Below are positions 1-24,485 of a stretch of DNA of 25,979 nt, piece after piece. The DNA comes from a virus: the IMG/VR virus record IMGVR_UViG_3300025771_000160, positions 1-25,979 of that record; one strand, given 5' to 3'. Each line of letters opens with the position of its first letter. Position 1 is the first letter of the stretch. Position numbers and translations under genes: made by a program. The notes under the pieces are model-generated. The model saw only the letters and a program-made list of their open reading frames with translations, did not search any database and was not told the DNA's origin.

Positions 1-686
1 GCAATTCCCACGTCTCTTCCGTCCTCATCAACCACATACATTTCGTTGGTGTCATGATTAAATTCACCCGGAGTCTTTTGAACCTCACCCCCTTCCTCCA
101 TGAATCCCGTTGCAACCTTCACGCCACCCTCAATAAACCCAGCTATTCCTTGCGCTAATTGCTGTTGCTTTTGAGCCAACCTAGCCTCAGCCATCGCCTT
201 CTCGTCGTAAGCGTATTCTAAATTTCTACCGTACTGAGCGTCTTGCATTTGCTGCGTGAACTGCTGAGCCTGACCAAGATTACTCAAAGCCTGAGTCTGA
301 GCTTGCTGTTGAGTAGCTGCCTCTGCCCTCATTTGCTGTTGAGCCGCTTGTTGAGCCTGCATCACAGCACCTAAGCCTCTAGAGCCATACTGCTGAGCCG
401 CTTGCGTTGTAGTGGCTAAAGACCTGTTAATGTCTTGCGTTCTCATCTGCATGAGTCGCTGGTCATAGGCGTTCTTCACTGCATCGTAATACGCAGATGG
501 TGTAGTAATAGACGGTTGAGTGGCCTTGATATTCTCCACGTTTTGTTTTGCAGATTCAATATCAGCTTTGATGGCTTTTCTTCCTGTTGCGCCAGCAATG
601 ATGCCAGCCAATCCTCCAGCGGCTCCAGCGATTCCAGCAATTTGGTCTTCACCAAATTGAAAAGTTTTCTCGTTCTCTTCCGGCAT
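1..686 (-). CDS. Ala/Gln-rich internal virion protein (partial)
   Basis: The gene starts at ATG 686 and runs off the left edge after 228 codons, so its C-terminus is missing. Its first A is the last base of the preceding gene's TAA (TAATG overlap), which supports the start and implies translational coupling. A short acidic/polar start is followed by a Gly/Ala-rich hydrophobic stretch at about residues 16-33 (AGIAGAAGGLAGIIAGATG), then a long helical region very rich in Ala and Gln with many Gln pairs. Near the edge comes the motif EEGGEVQKTPGEFNHDTNEM, a type of segment I recall from other phage internal or structural proteins. Position after the connector genes and composition resemble the internal virion (ejected) proteins of podoviruses such as T7 gp14. 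A cargo or ejection role is inference; the glycine-rich segment could insert in a membrane. Confidence 0.6.
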   Translation of the reverse strand, partial: MPEENEKTFQFGEDQIAGIAGAAGGLAGIIAGATGRKAIKADIESAKQNVENIKATQPSITTPSAYYDAVKNAYDQRLMQMRTQDINRSLATTTQAAQQYGSRGLGAVMQAQQAAQQQMRAEAATQQQAQTQALSNLGQAQQFTQQMQDAQYGRNLEYAYDEKAMAEARLAQKQQQLAQGIAGFIEGGVKVATGFMEEGGEVQKTPGEFNHDTNEMYVVDEDGRDVGI

Positions 687-8422: not shown

Positions 8423-9799
8423 TTATGCAGTCGCCTTAATCAAAACGTGCTGGTTAGCAGCACGAGTGACCAAGCAGCACTCAGAGCGGTAGTTGAACTT
8501 AGCCAAGTCCTGAGTATCGTTGGTGAATCCGAGGACACCACCACCAGTTACCCAGTGCTCCATCTCACGGCTGTAGCCGTTAGTAGCCTTGTAGTTCATC
8601 TCCAATGCAGGAGCTCTGTTGCCAGACTTTGGGTCAACAACGTTAGCGATTGGAATCATAACGCCAGAAGCAACCTGCTGTCCGATTGAAGTTTGTCCCA
8701 AGAGAGTTGGGTCATTCAACAATTTCCATGCGTGCTTGTGGAACGTGTAACCACCACGGCTGAACGACTTGAAGCCCAAGTTCAAAGCCATGTCCTTGTC
8801 GTTGTTGAACGCACCGTATGCAGCCATCAGACCACCGTTACCAGACTCGATACCAGCGATAGCATCGTCGAGCTTGAGGAACTGGTTACTGTTAGCGTAG
8901 ACAGCGTACTCTGCAGGAGCGCCGTTCTTGTCCAACTGCTTTACGATAACATCGAGGTCATCCAAAGCGTCGATGATATCAGAAGTAACGATACCTCTGT
9001 CCTCAATAGCAGCGAAGTACCCTTCAGTACCTGCAACTCCAGTAACAGCAGAAGTCTTCTCGCCGAGCAACATGGTCATCTCACGCTTGTCCAAGAAGCG
9101 CTGACGAGTGTCTGCCTCAGACTTGATGTACCATCTGTAGTCGCCACCACCGAGGTCGATGTAGCCGATGTTGGTTGCCTGAGAACCGCTAACCTCGTAC
9201 ACCTCCTTAACGATGGCGTAGTCATTGATTCTTCTAACAACATTAGACTGCAAGAAATTACCGGGCTGGTCTGAACCCTGAGCGAACATGTTACCTACGA
9301 TTGGCAGGACTGCAGCATCGGCAACAGCACTCGCATTTCCGCTAAGAGTAGCAACACTTACCGTAGTGCCAGAAGCAGCTGTAACGTACAAGCGCTCACC
9401 GTCAGCTGGGTTAAGCAGGATGTCACCAACTCTAGCAACCATTGCTGTGGCGTTATCACTACCAGCAGCAGTTACAGTGATGTCACCAGTAGTTGCTGAT
9501 GCAAAACCAGTTGCGACTGCTTGACCTTGGTGCAAACGAGCTTCTTCGAAGTACTGAACTTGGTCAGCAGTTCCGGCTGCGTTTACAGCACCGGTCAACT
9601 TCAAGAAGCCGGTGATACCTTGGTCACCATATTGCTTAACGAGCTGAGCTCGAACGTCAGGTGCGTTAACTTCGTTGATGAAGTCATAGAGAGAAGTGTA
9701 CTTGGTGGGGTCAGCCAAGTTGAACAAGCTGTTCTTAACCCCTTTGGGAGTAAATCCATCATTGGAGTTACCCGTTGGTTGAGAGACTGTAATAGCCAT
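8423..9799 (-). CDS. Major capsid protein
   Basis: A 458-residue protein directly after the scaffold-like gene; the size fits HK97-fold capsid subunits of this phage group. Seen: an N-terminal arm ending near DFINEVNAPDVRAQLVKQYG; a Thr/Ala/Val-rich beta segment at about residues 98-170 that looks like an inserted beta domain; DYRWYIKSEADTRQRFLDKR, a stretch I recall from capsid proteins of marine and crAss-like phages; and a C-terminal beta-rich region with REMEHWVTGGGVLGFTNDTQ. The leader between scaffold stop and ATG is short and A-rich (CTAAAAATTAGGAACTA), as expected where Shine-Dalgarno pairing is little used. Codon choice looks more C-ending here than in neighbours, fitting high expression. 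The capsid call rests on scaffold adjacency plus these motifs. Confidence 0.85.
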   Translation of the reverse strand: MAITVSQPTGNSNDGFTPKGVKNSLFNLADPTKYTSLYDFINEVNAPDVRAQLVKQYGDQGITGFLKLTGAVNAAGTADQVQYFEEARLHQGQAVATGFASATTGDITVTAAGSDNATAMVARVGDILLNPADGERLYVTAASGTTVSVATLSGNASAVADAAVLPIVGNMFAQGSDQPGNFLQSNVVRRINDYAIVKEVYEVSGSQATNIGYIDLGGGDYRWYIKSEADTRQRFLDKREMTMLLGEKTSAVTGVAGTEGYFAAIEDRGIVTSDIIDALDDLDVIVKQLDKNGAPAEYAVYANSNQFLKLDDAIAGIESGNGGLMAAYGAFNNDKDMALNLGFKSFSRGGYTFHKHAWKLLNDPTLLGQTSIGQQVASGVMIPIANVVDPKSGNRAPALEMNYKATNGYSREMEHWVTGGGVLGFTNDTQDLAKFNYRSECCLVTRAANQHVLIKATA

Positions 9800-11278: not shown

Positions 11279-11572
11279 TTATTTTACTGGTAGTTCAGAA
11301 GACCTGAGGCTAATATGAGTCTCGTGAATTCCGTACTCACCCTCCGGTATAACATGAAGGCAAATAGCTCCGTCAGGCTCAATGATGGTAATCTCATAAC
11401 CCTCTGGACCCACATTCAACGTTTCATACGTAGCGTAGCTAACCCCGTCGATTATCTCGCACTCCTCAAACTCAGATTCAGCTGTGCAGAAGGTTATGTA
11501 CTGAGCTACCCTGTCATCATTCCAGACAATCGGCAGTTCAGTGCTTTCGTCAACTTCGATGTAATACGTCAT
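11279..11572 (-). CDS. Acidic small protein coupled to the RCC1-like gene
   Basis: A 97-residue protein with many Glu and Asp and few basic residues, including FCTAESEFEECEIIDG near residues 28-43 and a beta-rich second half ending in HISLRSSELPVK. Its ATG overlaps the stop codon of the RCC1-like gene by four bases (ATGA), so the two are very probably translated together. I do not recognise a family. No signal peptide or membrane segment is visible. A partner or assembly factor for the propeller protein, or a small virion protein, are possibilities suggested only by the coupling. It is the last gene before the scaffold-capsid promoter box. Confidence 0.55.
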   Translation of the reverse strand: MTYYIEVDESTELPIVWNDDRVAQYITFCTAESEFEECEIIDGVSYATYETLNVGPEGYEITIIEPDGAICLHVIPEGEYGIHETHISLRSSELPVK

Positions 11573-12780
11573 GATACTGAAACTAAAACCATATTCGACT
11601 GCTGCCCTTGTACTGGGATTACTCTATTAACGGTAAGTCCGTCAAACATGCTCAAATCCTCAATAGCCGTTCTTGATGCGCCCTCTATAATTAGTTCGCC
11701 TTCAGTAATGTTTCCAGCAGTGTGTCCTGTTACGTATGTCTTACCGTCCTTGACAAATGCAGCCCCATAACCAGACCTAGGACCACTACCATAAACCTTA
11801 GTGAATCCAGTGTAGGTACCATCTCTATCCCACCCAGAAGTCTTTGAGCCAGTCTCATCCCACTGGACATTGCTATTGGCATATCCAGCTCTATACAGAT
11901 ATCCGTCATCGGTTACGACATGGCTTGAATACCGTCCAAAACCAACAGAAATCACATCGTTCAATGCGCTACCACCAGCAATTGTTGTAATTACTGGAGT
12001 TGTCGTTGAACCCGACTTGCCTAAGCTATTGCCATTGTTGTATCCCCAGACGTAAAGACTGCCATACCCATCACCCGCTGTTGCTTCAATAATTGCTCCA
12101 CCTCCGTCATACCCAGCTGATATGTCTATTGCATTAGTCACGCCAGTAAGCTTTGTAAGTGTTGATGTGTTACCGCTAGTTGTTCCTTGTCCAGTTCGAT
12201 AACTAGCGTTGCGACCAGCCACATAAACTTCTCCGCTATCATTCATAATGATGGTGAAGTTTTCTCCCCTTTCTACTCTAGTCCAGTTTGTTGCGGTCCC
12301 TACTTTAGTCCAGCTGGTTGTGTTCGTGTTGGTTCCATTTCCGGCCTGCCGATAGTAGTTATAACCCAAGTGATAATACTCCCCGTTTTTTATTGCGGCA
12401 AACTCAAACCTACCCCCAGCAATATCCTCCCAGTCAGTATCGGTACCAAATTGAGTCCACGTTGTTTGAGTTCCATAGCTGTTGTAGCTACCACTCCTGT
12501 TAAGCATCCACAACGTTCCGTCGCCTTTTAGGGCCCAAAAGTTAAAGTATTGATTTGAAACTACCTTATCAAAGATATGTGTGGTTGAACTTGTGAATGC
12601 ATACTGCTCTGGGCCTAAGTCCGAATCAACGCTAGAAAAGTCGTATACCCAATTGTTTACAGAGTCCCCAAACATGTAGGTTCCAGCACCTAAGCTTCGA
12701 CCTCCAGCCGGAACGTCAAGACCTGATATAGAAGCTATGTTAGCCATTGATAATCCTGAGTATTCTGAAATGTCTGGCAT
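11569..12780 (-). CDS. RCC1-like beta-propeller virion protein
   Basis: A 403-residue protein whose body consists of RCC1/BLIP-II-type repeats of about 50 residues. Blade signatures include LWMLNRSGSYNSYG (90-103), YYHLGYNYYRQAGNGTN (135-151), VYVAGRNASYRTGQG (185-199), LYVWGYNNGNSLGKSG (242-257) and LYRAGYANSN (295-304). The first about 28 residues (SEYSGLSMANIASISGLDVP within them) look like the short N-terminal tags I recall on structural proteins of marine phages, fit to anchor a propeller on the virion. It lies between fibre genes and the capsid group. Likely role: surface appendage or receptor-binding head/tail decoration. RCC1 repeats also occur in unrelated enzymes and regulators, so the fold is surer than the job. 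Confidence 0.75.
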   Translation of the reverse strand: MPDISEYSGLSMANIASISGLDVPAGGRSLGAGTYMFGDSVNNWVYDFSSVDSDLGPEQYAFTSSTTHIFDKVVSNQYFNFWALKGDGTLWMLNRSGSYNSYGTQTTWTQFGTDTDWEDIAGGRFEFAAIKNGEYYHLGYNYYRQAGNGTNTNTTSWTKVGTATNWTRVERGENFTIIMNDSGEVYVAGRNASYRTGQGTTSGNTSTLTKLTGVTNAIDISAGYDGGGAIIEATAGDGYGSLYVWGYNNGNSLGKSGSTTTPVITTIAGGSALNDVISVGFGRYSSHVVTDDGYLYRAGYANSNVQWDETGSKTSGWDRDGTYTGFTKVYGSGPRSGYGAAFVKDGKTYVTGHTAGNITEGELIIEGASRTAIEDLSMFDGLTVNRVIPVQGQQSNMVLVSVS

Positions 12781-18278: not shown

Positions 18279-18694
18279 TATATGCTAACGTCCTCATTGA
18301 TTTTGAAAGTTCCGTACAGCCAAGTGGTAACCACACCACCCACTGTTGCTTGAATGTCGTACACGTATAGTCCTGAATCAACACCGGACATATTGGTAGC
18401 GGACACAGTAAATTGAAGATTGCCGCTATCGTCGGGGTCATATGTAATCTGCTTCCCTTCTGAGTTGTCAGTGTCCTCGGTAGTTAGAATCAAATCATCA
18501 GCAGCTTCACCGCCCGTCGATGTGTCGCTAGTCCTTACCTCAAACTTAAATGTATGCCCACTCATATCGAGAGCGGTTCCAGATGAGTTAGTGATGTCCA
18601 AGTCAAGCAAGAACGTATCACCCTTTCTGCAGGTGATGTCTACTCTTTGTGCTGTGTCTAAATTGATTACGTTAGCCATTTCCGAAAAGCTCAT
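18278..18694 (-). CDS. Small beta-sandwich structural protein
   Basis: A 138-residue protein following the portal gene. The pattern of a conserved RKGDTFLLDLDI strand, ALDMSGHTFKFEVRT, and a late GLYVYDIQATVGGVVTTWLY ending in a GTFKINEDV strand resembles the N-terminal domain of baseplate upper proteins and similar phage Ig-like modules. The longest frame starts at ATG 18694, overlapping the portal end by 23 bases. A second ATG at 18679 (MANVINLDTAQ) overlaps by only 8 bases and begins just where the conserved-looking part starts, so it may be the true start. It probably forms a small head or neck decoration or an adaptor for the fibre encoded next. Confidence 0.7.
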   Translation of the reverse strand: MSFSEMANVINLDTAQRVDITCRKGDTFLLDLDITNSSGTALDMSGHTFKFEVRTSDTSTGGEAADDLILTTEDTDNSEGKQITYDPDDSGNLQFTVSATNMSGVDSGLYVYDIQATVGGVVTTWLYGTFKINEDVSI

Positions 18695-21125
18695 TAATTA
18701 CATCTTGATTACCAGCAGAGCTAGTTCCCTCTAGCTCCCCCCGCAATCCTTGTCTTTGAGAAATCAACTTTGATTGCTCCATAGCCTGCTTAGCTACACG
18801 CTCATCCTTACGGTCCTCCTTGAGTACCTCAATCTTTTCTCTGAACTCTTTCTCATCGGCCTTGAAACCTAGGCTAGATTCAGCCCTTATAATTTCAAGT
18901 TCCTTTCTCATGGCATGAAGGGCAGAAGCCACTTGGACTTCCACCTGACCTTTGAGTTGAATCTTTTGAGCTTCCAACTGAGCCTGCATCTGCATCTTTT
19001 GAGCTTCTATCTGCATAGCCTGTTGTTGCGCTTGAGCGTTAGCTTGAGCTTGCAGTTGAATGTTTTGCTGCTGTTGCGACTGAAGTTCTGAGAGTCTTCT
19101 CTTTCTTCTCACAGCAAGAAGTCTTTGAGCTTGGTCAATATCCTTTACCTGACGAACAGCCATAGCATCCTCAAGGTCTATCTCTTTTTGAGCGAGGGTG
19201 GCTTGTACGTTTTGCTCAAGGAATATTCTATCGTCATCAGACATTTCCTGCGTCACCCTTACACCAAAATTGTACATGGGTAACTCGTTAAAGCTATGTA
19301 GAATCTCCATCGACCTTTCACCAATGGACTTCTCGTAGACCCTATACAATACCGAGTCGTTAGGAATTACCTGCAAGCACTTCACTACGTCGTCACAAAC
19401 CCTCTTGTACAGAACCATGCTAGCGTTCGTAATGTCATACAACGCATTGTTCCCTGCTGCAATTGCCTGCTGCTGAACACCAACCAGAGCATCACCCTTC
19501 GGTGTGCTAGCATCCATTACCTCGTTGATTCCGGTCGCATCCCGAATCATACGCAAGTAATGATTGTACAGATTAATGTACTCGTTAATGTTTCTGATAC
19601 TGTTTTCTATGGAGCGAATAGGAGGGTTTTGGAATCCGCCCTCTGGGTTCTTGCTTCTGTAGTAGAACACACCCGTCTGCTCATATATGTCCTGAATCTG
19701 AAGCGGTTGCAATTCACCACCTCTACCGAGCTGTACATTTTCCAATCCCTCGATGTCAACCAAAACTCCATCAGGTTTAGCTTTAGCTACGGCCTGCTGA
19801 ATCTTTAGGTGTGTGAGTTGAAGCTGGTCGGCAAACCCAATGACACTACCTACGATAGACTTCGGTTGCATCTTACGCAAATTGGTGCAAGCAATGCTAT
19901 ACGAAAGCCTAGCCTTTGTTAGGTCATGAATGTTTTTAGGGATATTCTTTTTGATTCCGTAATCGTAAATGATGTCCGTACCCATGATATAAGAACCTCC
20001 GTACACAGTCTGGTTCTCCATCTTGTATGGCTCTCTGTCGTAAACAGAACTACTCGGCATCTTGTAGTCAGAACCCTTAAAGTAGAATCCACTATTTCCA
20101 AATTGAGAGTCCTTGCTTTCGTAGTAGACACAATCCACAGACAAGTACTCGAACTCCATAACATCAATTAGATAGTCGTCATATCCATACGAGTGCTTTC
20201 TTGAGTTCCTGTCATACGCCCTATTGTGAAATGCAGAGGTGTCATTGTAGTTTTTGTGCATGACCGTCTGTGCCAGCTCCTCAAACTTCTTCTCGTCTAT
20301 CTGACCCGATGCTTGACGCTTCAGCTCCTGAATGCTTATCCTTCTAATGTGGCCAGCATAAACGATGTCAGACATGTTAGGGTCATCCGTGTAGCTGTGA
20401 AGGAAGAAAGCTGGGTCGATGTACTTTGTTGTGATTCCGTAGTTCGGGTCATTGTCCCTTTTAACTACGCTCATACCACACACCACTAAATCCTCAACAG
20501 CTCTTCGATAAACGTTCTGGTCGAAATCATTCCAATCCAAGGTTAGGGCTATACCAAGTTGCGCTGCAATCTCAGCATTGGTCTTCATGTTTTGCTCCAT
20601 GAATATCTCAGCCTCTTCCGTTGTTTCGGGAAGAATGTCTGGGTCAATCTTTGGGGACAAGCCAAGTGCCTTAGCCTGTTCAAGGATTTCTTTATCCTTA
20701 ATGGAAGACTCTACATCTGCTTTAGCTTTTTCCTTTTCAGCCTTGCTGATTGGGTCGATGGCCTCTACAGACGGGTAGGGCTTTCGGGATAGGATGCGGT
20801 TCACCACAACCTTCACGAACTTAGGAACAATTGGAACTGGGCTCCAATCTAGATTTAACAAACTCCCATCACCATTGTTCGGGTCGAGTGAGTTTAGAAT
20901 CTGTTTGTAAACAGACGTGTCTTGAGTTCCGTTTGCATAGTCACGATTTTTTTCAAAGTCATGCATCCGACGACGAAACAAAGACGACTGGTCATCTCCA
21001 TGACCCCACTGCCCTTCAATTGCTTTTGCAAACTTGAGGCCGTAAGCCTTACCCGATTTTTCTTCTGGTGACGCAAAGGGGTCTGGAAAATTTCCGTATC
21101 TGTTATTTTTGTTCCCTTGGGTCAT
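18672..21125 (-). CDS. Portal protein (crAss-like type)
   Basis: An 817-residue portal, the dodecameric ring through which DNA enters and leaves the head. Seen: RDYANGTQDTSVYKQIL (61-77), LNLDWSPVPIVPKFVKVVVN (90-109), an acidic/charged helical insert at about 125-195, VVCGMSVVKRDNDPNYG and a core ending with helices around INEVMDASTPKGDALVGVQQ. The LNLDWSPV...VPKFV segment matches my memory of crAss-like portals. Residues about 669-721 form a long Gln/Ala-rich coiled coil (LQAQANAQAQQQAMQIEAQK), followed by a charged tail. That length, above the 450-650 residues of many portals, is usual for this group, where the C-terminus may form an internal barrel. It follows the terminase gene and a TATATTTG box 23 bases before its ATG. 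Confidence 0.92.
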   Translation of the reverse strand: MTQGNKNNRYGNFPDPFASPEEKSGKAYGLKFAKAIEGQWGHGDDQSSLFRRRMHDFEKNRDYANGTQDTSVYKQILNSLDPNNGDGSLLNLDWSPVPIVPKFVKVVVNRILSRKPYPSVEAIDPISKAEKEKAKADVESSIKDKEILEQAKALGLSPKIDPDILPETTEEAEIFMEQNMKTNAEIAAQLGIALTLDWNDFDQNVYRRAVEDLVVCGMSVVKRDNDPNYGITTKYIDPAFFLHSYTDDPNMSDIVYAGHIRRISIQELKRQASGQIDEKKFEELAQTVMHKNYNDTSAFHNRAYDRNSRKHSYGYDDYLIDVMEFEYLSVDCVYYESKDSQFGNSGFYFKGSDYKMPSSSVYDREPYKMENQTVYGGSYIMGTDIIYDYGIKKNIPKNIHDLTKARLSYSIACTNLRKMQPKSIVGSVIGFADQLQLTHLKIQQAVAKAKPDGVLVDIEGLENVQLGRGGELQPLQIQDIYEQTGVFYYRSKNPEGGFQNPPIRSIENSIRNINEYINLYNHYLRMIRDATGINEVMDASTPKGDALVGVQQQAIAAGNNALYDITNASMVLYKRVCDDVVKCLQVIPNDSVLYRVYEKSIGERSMEILHSFNELPMYNFGVRVTQEMSDDDRIFLEQNVQATLAQKEIDLEDAMAVRQVKDIDQAQRLLAVRRKRRLSELQSQQQQNIQLQAQANAQAQQQAMQIEAQKMQMQAQLEAQKIQLKGQVEVQVASALHAMRKELEIIRAESSLGFKADEKEFREKIEVLKEDRKDERVAKQAMEQSKLISQRQGLRGELEGTSSAGNQDVINELFGNG

Positions 21126-21173: not shown

Positions 21174-23267
21174 TTATCTCGGTTTATATCTCCGGAAGAA
21201 AACCTTATCTTCAAAGTTTGCTGGTGGCTTCTTGGGCTTTACTTTTTGAGCCGCCAATAGCGCTAATCCTGAACTAATCGAAAGGTCGAACTTAGTTCTC
21301 TTGTCGATTTTAAATCCAATCCAATCTTCTAAGGTTCTGTTGAAATACATCCTACCCGGATTGCCCGATTCATCAAGACCTACATGGTTGTGGACATAGT
21401 CTTCAATAGCTGAAGCATGAGCCTGTATAACGTCTTGAGAGTTAGACGGTATGCCCTTTGTCTTCACCGCTGCACCCCCATATGACTTAAGATGCTCTGG
21501 CCTCTCCATAACATAACCATCGTAACCCCTTGATTCAAAGTATCTTACGATACCATACTTATTGTTTTCTATAAGGAGAGGGTACCCATAATACACAGCA
21601 GCCATCAACACATCCTCGTAGAATATCTTAGCCATGGGTGGGCGGCTTGCATACTCGGCTACGAACATATTGCTAGCATCGTTCATACTAAACTTGTTGT
21701 ATATGTGACAAGCTCCCTTCGAACCACGGCTATCTATCGTAGCGTCCAAGTCATAAGAGTCAACCCCACCGCAGCCTAGGTGTGAGTTTGGGGGGACCCA
21801 TTTACCTCTTTCAGAGCGAAGTATACTCCTGCTCTCCTTGTCCGGCATCCAACACACATGCCACCTGCCTTGAGGGTCTGGGTTAAATGTCACCTTGGTA
21901 TCCTTTACTCCGTTTGCCCACTGGAAATTCCCACGAACAACTGGGTTTGGGAACAGCTCATCGTTATGTTCTATCTGCTCGTAAATCTTTCCAATGTTAA
22001 ACAGACTACCCTCGATACTATCTCTGAATGCCTCGTCAGGTGTAAATGGAAACTGCCGAATTAATTCGTTTAGTTCTTTAGCGTCTCCCCTCAATGAATC
22101 TCTTTCATTCTTGAGAAAGGTCTTAGCACCAAAAGACATAGTATCTCCCTCAAGAGTTTCTATGGGTTCTTCCGGGTCTTCTACTATGGGGTTTCCGAAC
22201 TTGTCAAAGAACCCTTCGAGTGACTCGTAGGCAGGGATGAATAATCTGTACAGTCCTGATGTGGTTCGTCCGTTTGCGTTTCTGTTCGCTGGGTCTGAAT
22301 CACGCCAAATCTGTTTGTACTCTTCGCCTCCTTTGTCCATTGGGTTTACCGTAGAACCCACCATAGCCTTTCCTATGATTCGTCTACCAACTATTAAGCA
22401 GGTCCTCTCTATCCTCCAAGCCTCTCGGATATCAGTAGGCTTCTCCCACTTGCCTGCCTCATCGAGATAAAGCATGTGCAGCTTCTCACCGTCGTATGCG
22501 TTATTCGTTGTGTTCTTCCAGTTAAGTACTGTGTTCAGCGCATCACCAACACCGGTTGTCTTATTCTTTTTGGTGATTCTTTTGGAGGGCTCTCTAAAGG
22601 CTAGCTCCACCCTTGGGTTGGTAGTACCATCTTGAATGGGTTTGAAGAAGAATGGGTAGTGCCGAAACATCGACACCACCTTTTTCATGAAGATGTTTTC
22701 CTGAGCATCCTTACCAGTCTTCGACTGAATGCCAAGAAGCTTGTCTTTAACTTGAGTAGCTTCATCAACAAGAACAGAGCTACAGATATTAGTATACCCA
22801 GAGCGGCGACACTTAGTATAAAGCTGACCGATACAACGAGGGTCAGCTTCGCACGCAGCCATGTGAAGAAAGATGTCCCTTTGGAACGCGAGGTATGATG
22901 GGTATCCAATATCAATTTTCGTCCACTGTAAGAGCATGTAGTGTCTACCGGTAATATACGTAGGCTCACCCTTATTGTAGAACCAAAAACCATCCCTACG
23001 CCTTCGAAACTCCTCTTCGATATATGAATGAAATTTCTCTCGAAACTCTTTCGGCGCTTCTGACCACTCATCCATACTTCTAATACGGGACAATTCTTTT
23101 GGCATAGGTACTCTTTCCCACACCTGCATATTTGCCTCCAGCTCCTGTCCTTTGATTTTTCCTTTCGGAGTCTCGGGAAGGCCAATGCGAAGCCCACCAA
23201 TCTCGATGATATCTCCGAGTGTACCGTTGGGACAAATCTTGATAACATCATCTTCCTTGTCCTGCAT
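21174..23267 (-). CDS. terL: Terminase large subunit
   Basis: A 697-residue DNA-packaging motor with ATPase and nuclease parts. Seen: a group-specific lead (DGFWFYNKGEPTYITGRHYM, about 92-111; LQWTKIDIGYPSYLAFQRDI) that I recall from crAss-like terminases; a Walker A-like segment QLYTKCRRSGYT at 148-159, deviating from the classic GxxxxGKS; Walker B MLYLDE at 265-270; a coupling motif GSTVNP at 304-309; and a nuclease start GGVDSYDLD at 500-508. Another acidic site is likely at ENNK (567-570) and FDLS (660-663). All key regions are intact. Length is typical of the group. The start overlaps the preceding 44-residue gene by 20 bases. It would act at the portal, cutting and pumping DNA; whether packaging is headful or site-specific cannot be told. 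Confidence 0.95.
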   Translation of the reverse strand: MQDKEDDVIKICPNGTLGDIIEIGGLRIGLPETPKGKIKGQELEANMQVWERVPMPKELSRIRSMDEWSEAPKEFREKFHSYIEEEFRRRRDGFWFYNKGEPTYITGRHYMLLQWTKIDIGYPSYLAFQRDIFLHMAACEADPRCIGQLYTKCRRSGYTNICSSVLVDEATQVKDKLLGIQSKTGKDAQENIFMKKVVSMFRHYPFFFKPIQDGTTNPRVELAFREPSKRITKKNKTTGVGDALNTVLNWKNTTNNAYDGEKLHMLYLDEAGKWEKPTDIREAWRIERTCLIVGRRIIGKAMVGSTVNPMDKGGEEYKQIWRDSDPANRNANGRTTSGLYRLFIPAYESLEGFFDKFGNPIVEDPEEPIETLEGDTMSFGAKTFLKNERDSLRGDAKELNELIRQFPFTPDEAFRDSIEGSLFNIGKIYEQIEHNDELFPNPVVRGNFQWANGVKDTKVTFNPDPQGRWHVCWMPDKESRSILRSERGKWVPPNSHLGCGGVDSYDLDATIDSRGSKGACHIYNKFSMNDASNMFVAEYASRPPMAKIFYEDVLMAAVYYGYPLLIENNKYGIVRYFESRGYDGYVMERPEHLKSYGGAAVKTKGIPSNSQDVIQAHASAIEDYVHNHVGLDESGNPGRMYFNRTLEDWIGFKIDKRTKFDLSISSGLALLAAQKVKPKKPPANFEDKVFFRRYKPR

Positions 23268-23387: not shown

Positions 23388-23681
23388 TTATTTTGAGAAC
23401 TTCTCCGCAAACCCTCCGGAGTAGTCTTTTTGTTCCTCGATGTTTCCGTTTGAGTGTAGGTCTTTAACCATCTGTTCAAGCCGCTGCCGTTCCACCAGAA
23501 GCTCCTTGCAGTCCACCGCAGTCTGCTTGATACTTTGCAGCTCAGCCTTTCTAGCACTCCCTCCAGCTTCCGGGTCAACAGGTCTTTTAACTTCATCAAT
23601 CATATTGTTTATAGCAATCTCCATAGACTTCATAAGTCTTTGGGCCGCTTCGACTGTGGTGAATTTAACTTGTCTTGACAT
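23388..23681 (-). CDS. Helical protein upstream of terminase (possible small terminase)
   Basis: A 97-residue, mostly helical protein: an N-terminal helix with EAAQRLMKSMEIAINNMIDE (about 11-30), the turn KRPVDPEAGGSARKAELQSI (32-51), a coiled-coil-like helix ELLVERQRLEQMVKDLH (59-75) and a short tail. It overlaps the co-chaperonin gene by 17 bases and precedes the tiny basic gene and the terminase. Small terminase subunits are short helical proteins often encoded just before the large subunit, so this is the natural candidate in the window. However, I see no clear helix-turn-helix DNA-binding domain, so the identification is only positional. A different assembly factor is possible. Confidence 0.5.
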   Translation of the reverse strand: MSRQVKFTTVEAAQRLMKSMEIAINNMIDEVKRPVDPEAGGSARKAELQSIKQTAVDCKELLVERQRLEQMVKDLHSNGNIEEQKDYSGGFAEKFSK

Positions 23682-24252
23682 AACTAATATCGTCTAGTCT
23701 CATTCTATACACAACAGTATCATCGTCAAGTTTCATCTTGTAGTCTGAGTCTCTGTCAAACCCAACGACATCACCAACCTTAACGCCTTGACGAGCCAGC
23801 TCTTTATGCGGCATAAACACAATGGCCTCTCTGTCGTCCCTCTCCTTTACCTTGATGTCTATGATGATTCCGGATGAAGTCACCTCTTCCTCAGTCTCGT
23901 CTTCAATCGGTTGTACGAACACCCACTCCGACAGCATATGAAGTTCCCCTTCCGAGTCCCGGTACGCAATAGCATGAGAGCCGCGAGGGTTCTCTTCATC
24001 GTACACAACAAGGTAGTTGTCGTCACCGAGCGATAGCGTCTTATTCTGGGTAACATGGTGATGAAAAAATAAAAGGTCTCCTTCCTTTACTCCTGTCTCA
24101 ATAACATGAGGGGCAGACATGACGAGCCCATAACAGATGCGATGGTTAAACTCGTCGAATCTCGTGTCAAGGAAAATCTCTTTATCGCCAAGCTTGATAG
24201 TGTCGTTAGTCTTGCTTGGCACGTTGACAATAAAATGTCTTAATGCTTTCAT
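23665..24252 (-). CDS. Two-domain GroES-like co-chaperonin
   Basis: A 195-residue protein that reads as two successive GroES (Cpn10) domains. Domain 2 (about 107-195) has WVFVQPIEDE, the mobile-loop-like VTSSGIIIDI (124-133), GVKVGDVVGF (156-165) and the ending VVYRMRLDDISYV, each in the order of GroES. Domain 1 (about 1-112) is more diverged: FIVNVPSK, EIFLDTRFDEF at the loop position, GVKEGDLLFFHHHV (54-67), LGDDNYLVVYDEENPRGSHA and HMLSEWVFV at its end. GroES closes the GroEL cavity; phage versions (T4 gp31) let large capsid proteins fold in host GroEL. Its start overlaps the upstream stop by four bases (ATGA). Fusion of two domains resembles chloroplast Cpn20; function as a capsid co-chaperonin is inferred. 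Confidence 0.75.
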   Translation of the reverse strand: MKALRHFIVNVPSKTNDTIKLGDKEIFLDTRFDEFNHRICYGLVMSAPHVIETGVKEGDLLFFHHHVTQNKTLSLGDDNYLVVYDEENPRGSHAIAYRDSEGELHMLSEWVFVQPIEDETEEEVTSSGIIIDIKVKERDDREAIVFMPHKELARQGVKVGDVVGFDRDSDYKMKLDDDTVVYRMRLDDISYVKTS

Positions 24253-24485
24253 TCGAAGTTACAATCGTATTCAATTAGAATTGGCTGGTTCTCAACCGTC
24301 TTCCAAATATACGTTGAATCTTCGTCCTCTAGGTAAACATGGTAACGCCTTACGTTGTACTTGTACAGTGCCGCATCGTCCTCTTTGATTGCTGAGACCT
24401 TCGCTCCGCCCGCTTTCATTCCGACGTAGTACGCCATTGCGTCTTTGGGGTTTGGCCCAATGACAATCTTTCTAATTACGTTCAT
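24249..24485 (-). CDS. Small conserved protein of unknown role
   Basis: A 78-residue protein: MNVIRKIVIGPNPKDAMAYY, then VGMKAGGAKVSAIKEDDAAL, a middle YKYNVRRYHVYLEDEDSTYI and the end QPILIEYDCNF. The alternating beta pattern and the phrase IRKIVIGPNPKDAMAYYVG look like a small protein I recall from Bacteroidota phages, without a known function. It is coupled by an ATGA overlap to the co-chaperonin gene and lies 5 bases after the upstream gene. A TATATTTG match inside it (24304-24311) falls in the Ile-Trp-Lys coding part, probably by chance. No catalytic motif or membrane segment is visible. Confidence 0.6.
   Translation of the reverse strand: MNVIRKIVIGPNPKDAMAYYVGMKAGGAKVSAIKEDDAALYKYNVRRYHVYLEDEDSTYIWKTVENQPILIEYDCNFE

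Follow-up and report, generated by a model that had tools for sequence, protein, structure and literature searches.

Proteins comparable to the one considered here have been described in a phage and in plastids. In gp31 of phage T4, the roof loops are absent and the mobile loop is longer, features that a published account gives as believed to suit the large capsid protein gp23 (PMC6318259). In plastids, Cpn20 is described by a review as working with Cpn60 as a homo- or hetero-oligomer, and its match of an even-numbered co-chaperonin with a sevenfold chaperonin as raising a "symmetry dilemma"; hetero-oligomers of seven domains are described there, along with working lids of six or eight (PMC5780408). 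Since plastid lids come in six, seven, and eight domains, an even-numbered chain is no obstacle. Complementation of groES depletion in E. coli has been reported for the Cpn20 of P. falciparum. The ClpP complex of Chlamydomonas is reported to carry CPN11, CPN20, and CPN23 (PMC8889267). Among phages, "chaperonin cpn10" is named as one of the core proteins of the Pervagoviridae (PMC8776804), and a study of the group of about 78 members that includes phi38:1 reports GroEL homologues in 36 of its environmental genomes (PMC5332604).

The stretch of DNA analysed here, called the window, is the entire virus record IMGVR_UViG_3300025771_000160 of 25,979 bases. No end repeat was found in the record, which is probably a fragment of a genome. 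The virus itself is a bacterial virus, kin of the phages of marine bacteria. One of its genes codes for a protein of two GroES-fold domains joined head to tail, a build known above all from the chloroplasts of plants. This reading can be considered nearly certain. The gene, its parts, and its neighbors are the following:

24249..24485, minus strand: 78-aa open reading frame (ORF) ending in an ATGA overlap with the start codon of the double-protein gene
23665..24252, minus strand: two-domain GroES-like protein, 195 aa, matching PHROG 13932 (co-chaperonin GroES) with residues 1-192 on profile positions 1-198 of 200, E 2.9e-32
23929..24252, minus strand: domain 1, residues 1-108, diverged GroES fold, from HHalign and from VIA-align of the model of residues 1-112
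24130..24222, minus strand: mobile-loop region of domain 1, residues 11-41, with the hydrophobic tripeptide IFL at 26-28 and low pLDDT
23668..23943, minus strand: domain 2, residues 104-195, Cpn10 domain, from Pfam PF00166 and HHalign
23830..23913, minus strand: mobile-loop region of domain 2, residues 114-141, with EEVTSSGIII and lower pLDDT
23388..23681, minus strand: 97-aa ORF between the double-protein gene and the terminase gene, overlapping the 3' end of the former by 17 nt
21174..23267, minus strand: terminase large subunit, phrog_6681, E 1.9e-205, a conserved downstream neighbor
18672..21125, minus strand: portal protein, phrog_6547, E 4.9e-197
8423..9799, minus strand: virion structural protein of 48.7 kDa, phrog_13704 "virion structural protein", E 1.8e-114

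A preliminary description of this DNA had given the same coordinates and the same 195 residues, to which the minus strand is now added. The motifs it named are all in place (EIFL at residues 25-28, GVKEGD at 54-59, TSSGIII at 125-131, and GVKVGD at 156-161), and so is the packaging and structural gene setting it proposed, with terminase and portal downstream on the same strand. The virion structural protein is likely the major capsid protein and a candidate substrate. Also within the virion gene block sits a gene (window 11569-12780, minus strand) for an RCC1-type repeat protein of 403 aa, which matches phrog_4219 "regulator of chromosome condensation" with E 5.1e-14.

The plus strand opposite 23665-24252 has six stops in the single frame translated. 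A sequencing artefact or a fusion of frames was considered as the origin of the double chain and rejected, since dozens of contigs, obtained from different samples, and seven Cellulophaga phage records all preserve the same build. Synonymous codon identity within the gene is highest at codons 191-195 (window 23668-23682, minus strand), at 0.92 compared to 0.43 for the whole gene. These codons overlap the start of the next ORF, and their conservation is in keeping with translational coupling to the 97-aa ORF. The second-highest block, at 0.56, is codons 31-40.

The C-terminal half is a clear Cpn10/GroES domain. PF00166 matches the double protein at residues 104-189 only (E 1.1e-6; 29 bits against a cut-off of 21.1), and solved GroES chains are matched there by the family profile with E 4.2e-5. 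The NCBIfam GroES models reach E values down to 4.3e-6, yet far under their cut-offs, and phmmer with the single window sequence found no GroES chain in the PDB, its matches there having E 0.061 or worse. For comparison by HHalign, a GroES profile was made of 33 sequences, namely that of E. coli, two from genomes behind named loci, and 30 from one phylum, with Bacteroidota GroES absent. Against this profile, domain 2 scores 64.8, compared to a maximum of 21.2 for 100 column shuffles. In the model of the whole chain, domain 2 aligns with GroES chain 4pko_O with a VIA-align Z of 8.6 and an rmsd of 4.0 over 82 residues.

The N-terminal half is more distant. Pfam finds no Cpn10 match in domain 1 alone, and Foldseek with the model of this domain alone ranks GroES first but weakly (E 0.41, probability 0.77), so domain 1 is a diverged member of the GroES fold. 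Its profile scores 28.2 against the GroES profile, above 100 of 100 column shuffles (maximum 18.3), and 27.1 against the profile of domain 2, where 100 shuffles of the domain 1 columns give a mean of 11.5, a standard deviation of 2.7, and a maximum of 20.3. Residues 1-112 were also modeled separately with AlphaFold2 from 39 rows (pLDDT 81). The best 11 rows of the VIA-align comparison of this model are all Cpn10, GroES, gp31, or 7ekq_R chains with Z between 6.7 and 5.3, a range below 8 in which, by the tool's own caution, a match may reflect a common arrangement. The best of them has a Z of 6.7 and an rmsd of 3.6 over 78 residues. The GroES fold of domain 1 is accepted because these rows are taken together with the HHalign score. 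Row 12 is a reductase with a GroES-like domain; such reductases were set aside as the fold of domain 1, with Z of 4.2 at most, lower than the Cpn10 chains. Pfam matches to Nmad3 (E 0.0024 for the whole protein and 0.024 for domain 1) and to NLPC_P60 (E 0.18) were below the cut-off. Domain 1 also carries the motif HHHV at residues 64-67 (window 24052-24063, minus strand), with a pairwise identity of 1.00 in 27 non-redundant members of the clade; His64 and His65 are each kept in 33 of the 34 sequences of the wider non-redundant set.

The whole chain was modeled from the family alignment A2 (49 rows, one contig being present twice), with a pLDDT of 82 and a pTM of 0.76. The pLDDT is low at residues 11-40 and dips more mildly at 111-140, and these are the two loop regions. 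The top Foldseek match in the PDB is 7ekq_R (E 2.1e-5, TM-score 0.53), and it spans both domains. The same chain, from a Chlamydomonas entry, is the best VIA-align match, with a Z of 10.6 and an rmsd of 4.8 over 165 residues within 1..194. Next come GroES entries, which align on domain 2 and reach a Z of 8.6. We take 7ekq to be the structure of the Chlamydomonas Clp complex and its chain R (length 194) to be a two-domain subunit of Cpn20 type. Among predicted structures of viral proteins, the best named match is the "Chaperonin cpn10" of phi18:3, of 200 aa, with TM-scores of 0.72 and 0.70.

The claim of the preliminary description that the GroES layout occurs twice in one chain is thus borne out by HHalign scores above the shuffles and by fold matches for both halves. 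Both halves align with GroES, and domain 1 places GroES-type entries first in VIA-align even when predicted separately. A Cpn10 profile search on each half had been proposed; Pfam and HHalign both find the domain in the second half, whereas in the first half HHalign finds it and Pfam does not. The comparison with Cpn20 also proved apt, 7ekq_R being the top match across both domains. The protein is not a lone oddity, for it belongs to a large phage family already annotated as GroES or cpn10.

As in T4 gp31, the roof hairpin of GroES is missing from both domains, and the mobile loops are long. Counted between strand motifs picked by eye, the roof stretch has 7 residues in domain 1 and 9 in domain 2, compared to 8 in gp31 and 15 in E. 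coli GroES, and the mobile-loop stretch has 31 and 28 residues, compared to 30 and 25. Counted between alignment columns across the family, all 52 rows have a roof of 5-8 residues in domain 1 and one of 3-9 in domain 2, compared to 15 in 33/33 GroES sequences. The domain 1 loop has 30-33 residues in 52 of 52 rows. The domain 2 loop has 26-30 in 49 of them and 17-19 in the other three, which are these double proteins:

L120, 9001-9543: elemoF, domain 1 loop tip GLIL
L121, 9001-9564: MW202828, domain 1 loop tip GGIEF
L123, 18001-18549: Panino, domain 1 loop tip GGVEF

The domain 1 tips of these three are GroES-like, and the shortening of their domain 2 loops means that not every member has two working loops per chain. 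All three phages encode GroEL. So does phi38:1, where the domain 2 loop still has 27 residues.

The domain 1 loop had been described as diverged. The residues EIFL are indeed found at 25-28, but the loop is not merely diverged, because its hydrophobic tripeptide is nearly universal. Among sequences non-redundant at 90%, hydrophobic residues occupy positions 26-28 in 34/34, 32/34, and 33/34 rows, and positions 129-131 of domain 2 in 33/33, 30/33, and 25/33 (one of the 34 rows is gapped here). The domain 1 loop, having kept this tripeptide, is also a candidate for binding GroEL. Its residues 25-41 are conserved in the clade at 0.63, like the folded parts, compared to 0.34 for the domain 2 loop, which suggests a constraint beyond simple docking on GroEL.

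An internal start at Met106 would yield a free domain 2 and so solve the sevenfold mismatch. It is not supported by the codons around it, as synonymous identity is 0.35 at codons 91-100 and 0.36 at codons 101-110, compared to 0.43 for the gene. All 25 thinned clade sequences have Met106, with Ala in its place in three outgroup rows, and Trp110 is just as invariant.

The family is widespread in phages. In a phage collection, tblastn with the window protein finds seven records; all belong to Cellulophaga phages and are 30% identical to it. Queried with the phi38:1 protein, the collection gives 77, the additions being 68 records of Flavobacterium phages, one of a Maribacter phage, and one labeled Caudoviricetes. 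The elemo protein finds 83, of which 77 cover at least 80% of the query length. Matches of the phi18:3 type to the elemo protein, among those listed, cover residues 1-84 with E 0.3; the membership of phi18:3 was set by PHROG 13932 (E 5.3e-102) and not by tblastn. For elemoF, MW202828, and Panino, it was set by tblastn together with PHROG 13932 (E 4.9e-15, 3.8e-21, and 3.2e-19). Five members outside the clade of the window have 20-34% identity to its protein, per domain. IMG/VR viral contigs gave 59 loci in a first scan and at least 437 confirmed related stretches in a second, of which 80 were kept. One scan with patterns derived from A2 gave no relatives in cellular genomes among 218 stretches, and distant copies could escape it. 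A terminase gene lies downstream on the same strand, 286-842 nt away, in 95 of 95 IMG/VR loci, a count in which one contig appears twice and many contigs are near-identical. What is known of this family is its annotation as plain GroES or cpn10; the two-domain build is apparently new, being unmentioned in the database records and open-licence literature examined. Among the matches listed, the open-licence titles and abstract openings contained no description of a two-domain phage co-chaperonin.

Partners of the double protein were sought with PF00118 (GroEL) and PF00166 (GroES) in 15 IMG/VR records and six phage records, phi38:1 and Calle_1 being in both sets. With PF00118, the window shows no GroEL, and neither do 12 of the 14 further IMG/VR records in that set. 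Three settings are seen. GroEL and a single-domain GroES accompany the double protein in phi38:1, Calle_1, elemoF, MW202828, and Panino. A single GroES accompanies it, with GroEL undetected, in phi18:3 and in G003 (the record of L096). The double protein alone is detected in the window and in 11 IMG/VR records (G004-G014). As GroEL is undetected in the window, the partner there would have to be that of the host. Exact end repeats of 123-141 bases make the records G005, G006, and G007 look complete; in G003, the repeat is 32 bases long. In these four records, searches with both profiles to E 10 find no GroEL and an extra single GroES only in G003. A single GroES that has diverged far could escape such a search, since in elemoF, MW202828, and Panino PF00166 failed even on the double protein. 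Where separate groES-groEL genes are present, they are located elsewhere in the genome than the double gene.

With its two GroES folds, missing roofs, long loops with conserved hydrophobic tips, and fixed place upstream of terminase, the double protein is most likely a roofless lid of GroEL that folds phage structural proteins, a reading to which a probability of about 0.65 can be given. We infer ring formation, GroEL binding, a partner subunit, and a substrate, either the capsid or the portal protein. Several double chains, either by themselves or joined by a single-domain GroES that phage or host encodes, would form a ring of about seven domains capping GroEL, and the loop tips, IFL in domain 1 and III in domain 2, would dock on it. 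Missing roof hairpins and longer loops should give a closed chamber that is more spacious and has an opening at its top. A product of the packaging and head genes encoded alongside would be the probable folding substrate. A more specific and distinctly doubtful version is that this phage lineage evolved, independently of plastids, a double co-chaperonin of the Cpn20 type that builds mixed seven-domain lids with single GroES, for example, from three doubles and one single. If so, phages with their own groES-groEL genes would make the entire lid themselves, and phages like that of the window would recruit the GroES of the host, so that the host GroEL would come to work as a roofless machine on phage proteins. 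Loops shortened in domain 2, as some lineages have them, would then tune the number of GroEL contacts per chain.

The sevenfold mismatch would vanish altogether if domain 2 were the only working GroES unit and domain 1 an adaptor, holding, for example, a head or packaging protein, so that seven chains would form a ring with seven extra domains. This is unlikely, even if the domain 2 loop (EEVTSSGIII) is more GroES-like and that domain scores better against GroES, and even if domain 1 has, unlike GroES, the conserved HHHV and the conserved loop stretch EIFLDTRFNEFEHR. It is the domain 2 loop that elemoF, MW202828, and Panino shorten while keeping a GroES-like tip on domain 1; almost all members retain the hydrophobic tripeptide of domain 1, and the full model matches a chain of Cpn20 type across both domains. 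It is also conceivable, though quite improbable, that the GroES fold has been co-opted as an assembly or packaging factor that acts with terminase or portal and never caps GroEL. The place of the gene just upstream of terminase in all 95 loci, with groES-groEL genes elsewhere, would fit such a factor, as would the retention of the double protein even in phages that own both GroES and GroEL. However, most of the family retains hydrophobic tips on the loops of both domains, and in Bacteroides phage crAss001, a single Cpn10-like domain (gp15) encoded upstream of terminase points to a co-chaperonin at this place. A slight further hint against it comes from phi18:3, where a note of MS/MS proteomics is found on five proteins of the listed stretch of its genome and not on the GroES-like gp096, so that a part in the virion is not indicated, although a missing note does not amount to a negative finding.

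For the question of how an even-numbered co-chaperonin fits a sevenfold chaperonin, the phage family supplies three natural situations: the double protein alone, with a single GroES, or with both GroES and GroEL. Its members are small, and for some of them (phi38:1, Calle, the elemo phages, and Panino) the phage has been isolated and its host is known. This, together with the short roofs in 52 of 52 rows, makes stoichiometry and cage size directly testable. A core protein of a phage family annotated "cpn10" also gains a refined reading as a double-domain protein.

Among known systems, the nearest are the proteins of the same family (PHROG 13932) in the Pervagoviridae (phi38:1 gp089 and Calle), the Pachyviridae (phi18:3 gp096), Elemovirus, and Maribacter phage Panino. 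They are annotated "chaperonin cpn10" or "co-chaperonin GroES," have 180-200 aa, and are encoded just upstream of terminase and portal. Cpn20 of chloroplasts and apicoplasts resembles the window protein in having two Cpn10-like domains head to tail; it differs in that the window protein is encoded by a phage, lacks the roof hairpins, and has no clear sequence link to it. No Cpn20 chain is among the sequence matches of phmmer or of the family profile against the PDB, where the sole plastid match is 7ekq_P (Chaperonin 11), with E 0.0095 to the family profile. The double build of the phages may have arisen by a duplication or fusion independent of that of Cpn20. T4 gp31 is alike in being a phage co-chaperonin with the roof loop absent and a long mobile loop, and the fold comparisons find it (1g31 with Z 6.5 and 2cgt with Z 7.5 on domain 2 of the whole model, and 1g31 with Z 5.5 on domain 1 alone). 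However, gp31 has one domain per chain, and the terminase gene is absent from the 11 kb around it; because of its two domains, the double protein was not filed as a gp31 member.

A similar gene order is seen in crAss001, in which a GroES-like protein is also encoded upstream of terminase and portal:

L252, 7411-7821: crAss001 gp15, four genes upstream of terminase

Compared to the double protein, gp15 is shorter, with 136 aa and one Cpn10-like domain (Pfam E 0.0036, below the cut-off; PHROG 3188, E 1.6e-5). Its neighbors gp16 and gp17 were considered as a separate second domain and rejected, as HHalign gives them a probability below 1% against both the double profile and GroES. The roofs of gp15 and of the elemo GroES, both single-domain proteins, are also short, with 6 residues each. 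By analogy, the comparison suggests that the double chain may be a variant of a co-chaperonin long tied to the head and packaging gene block.
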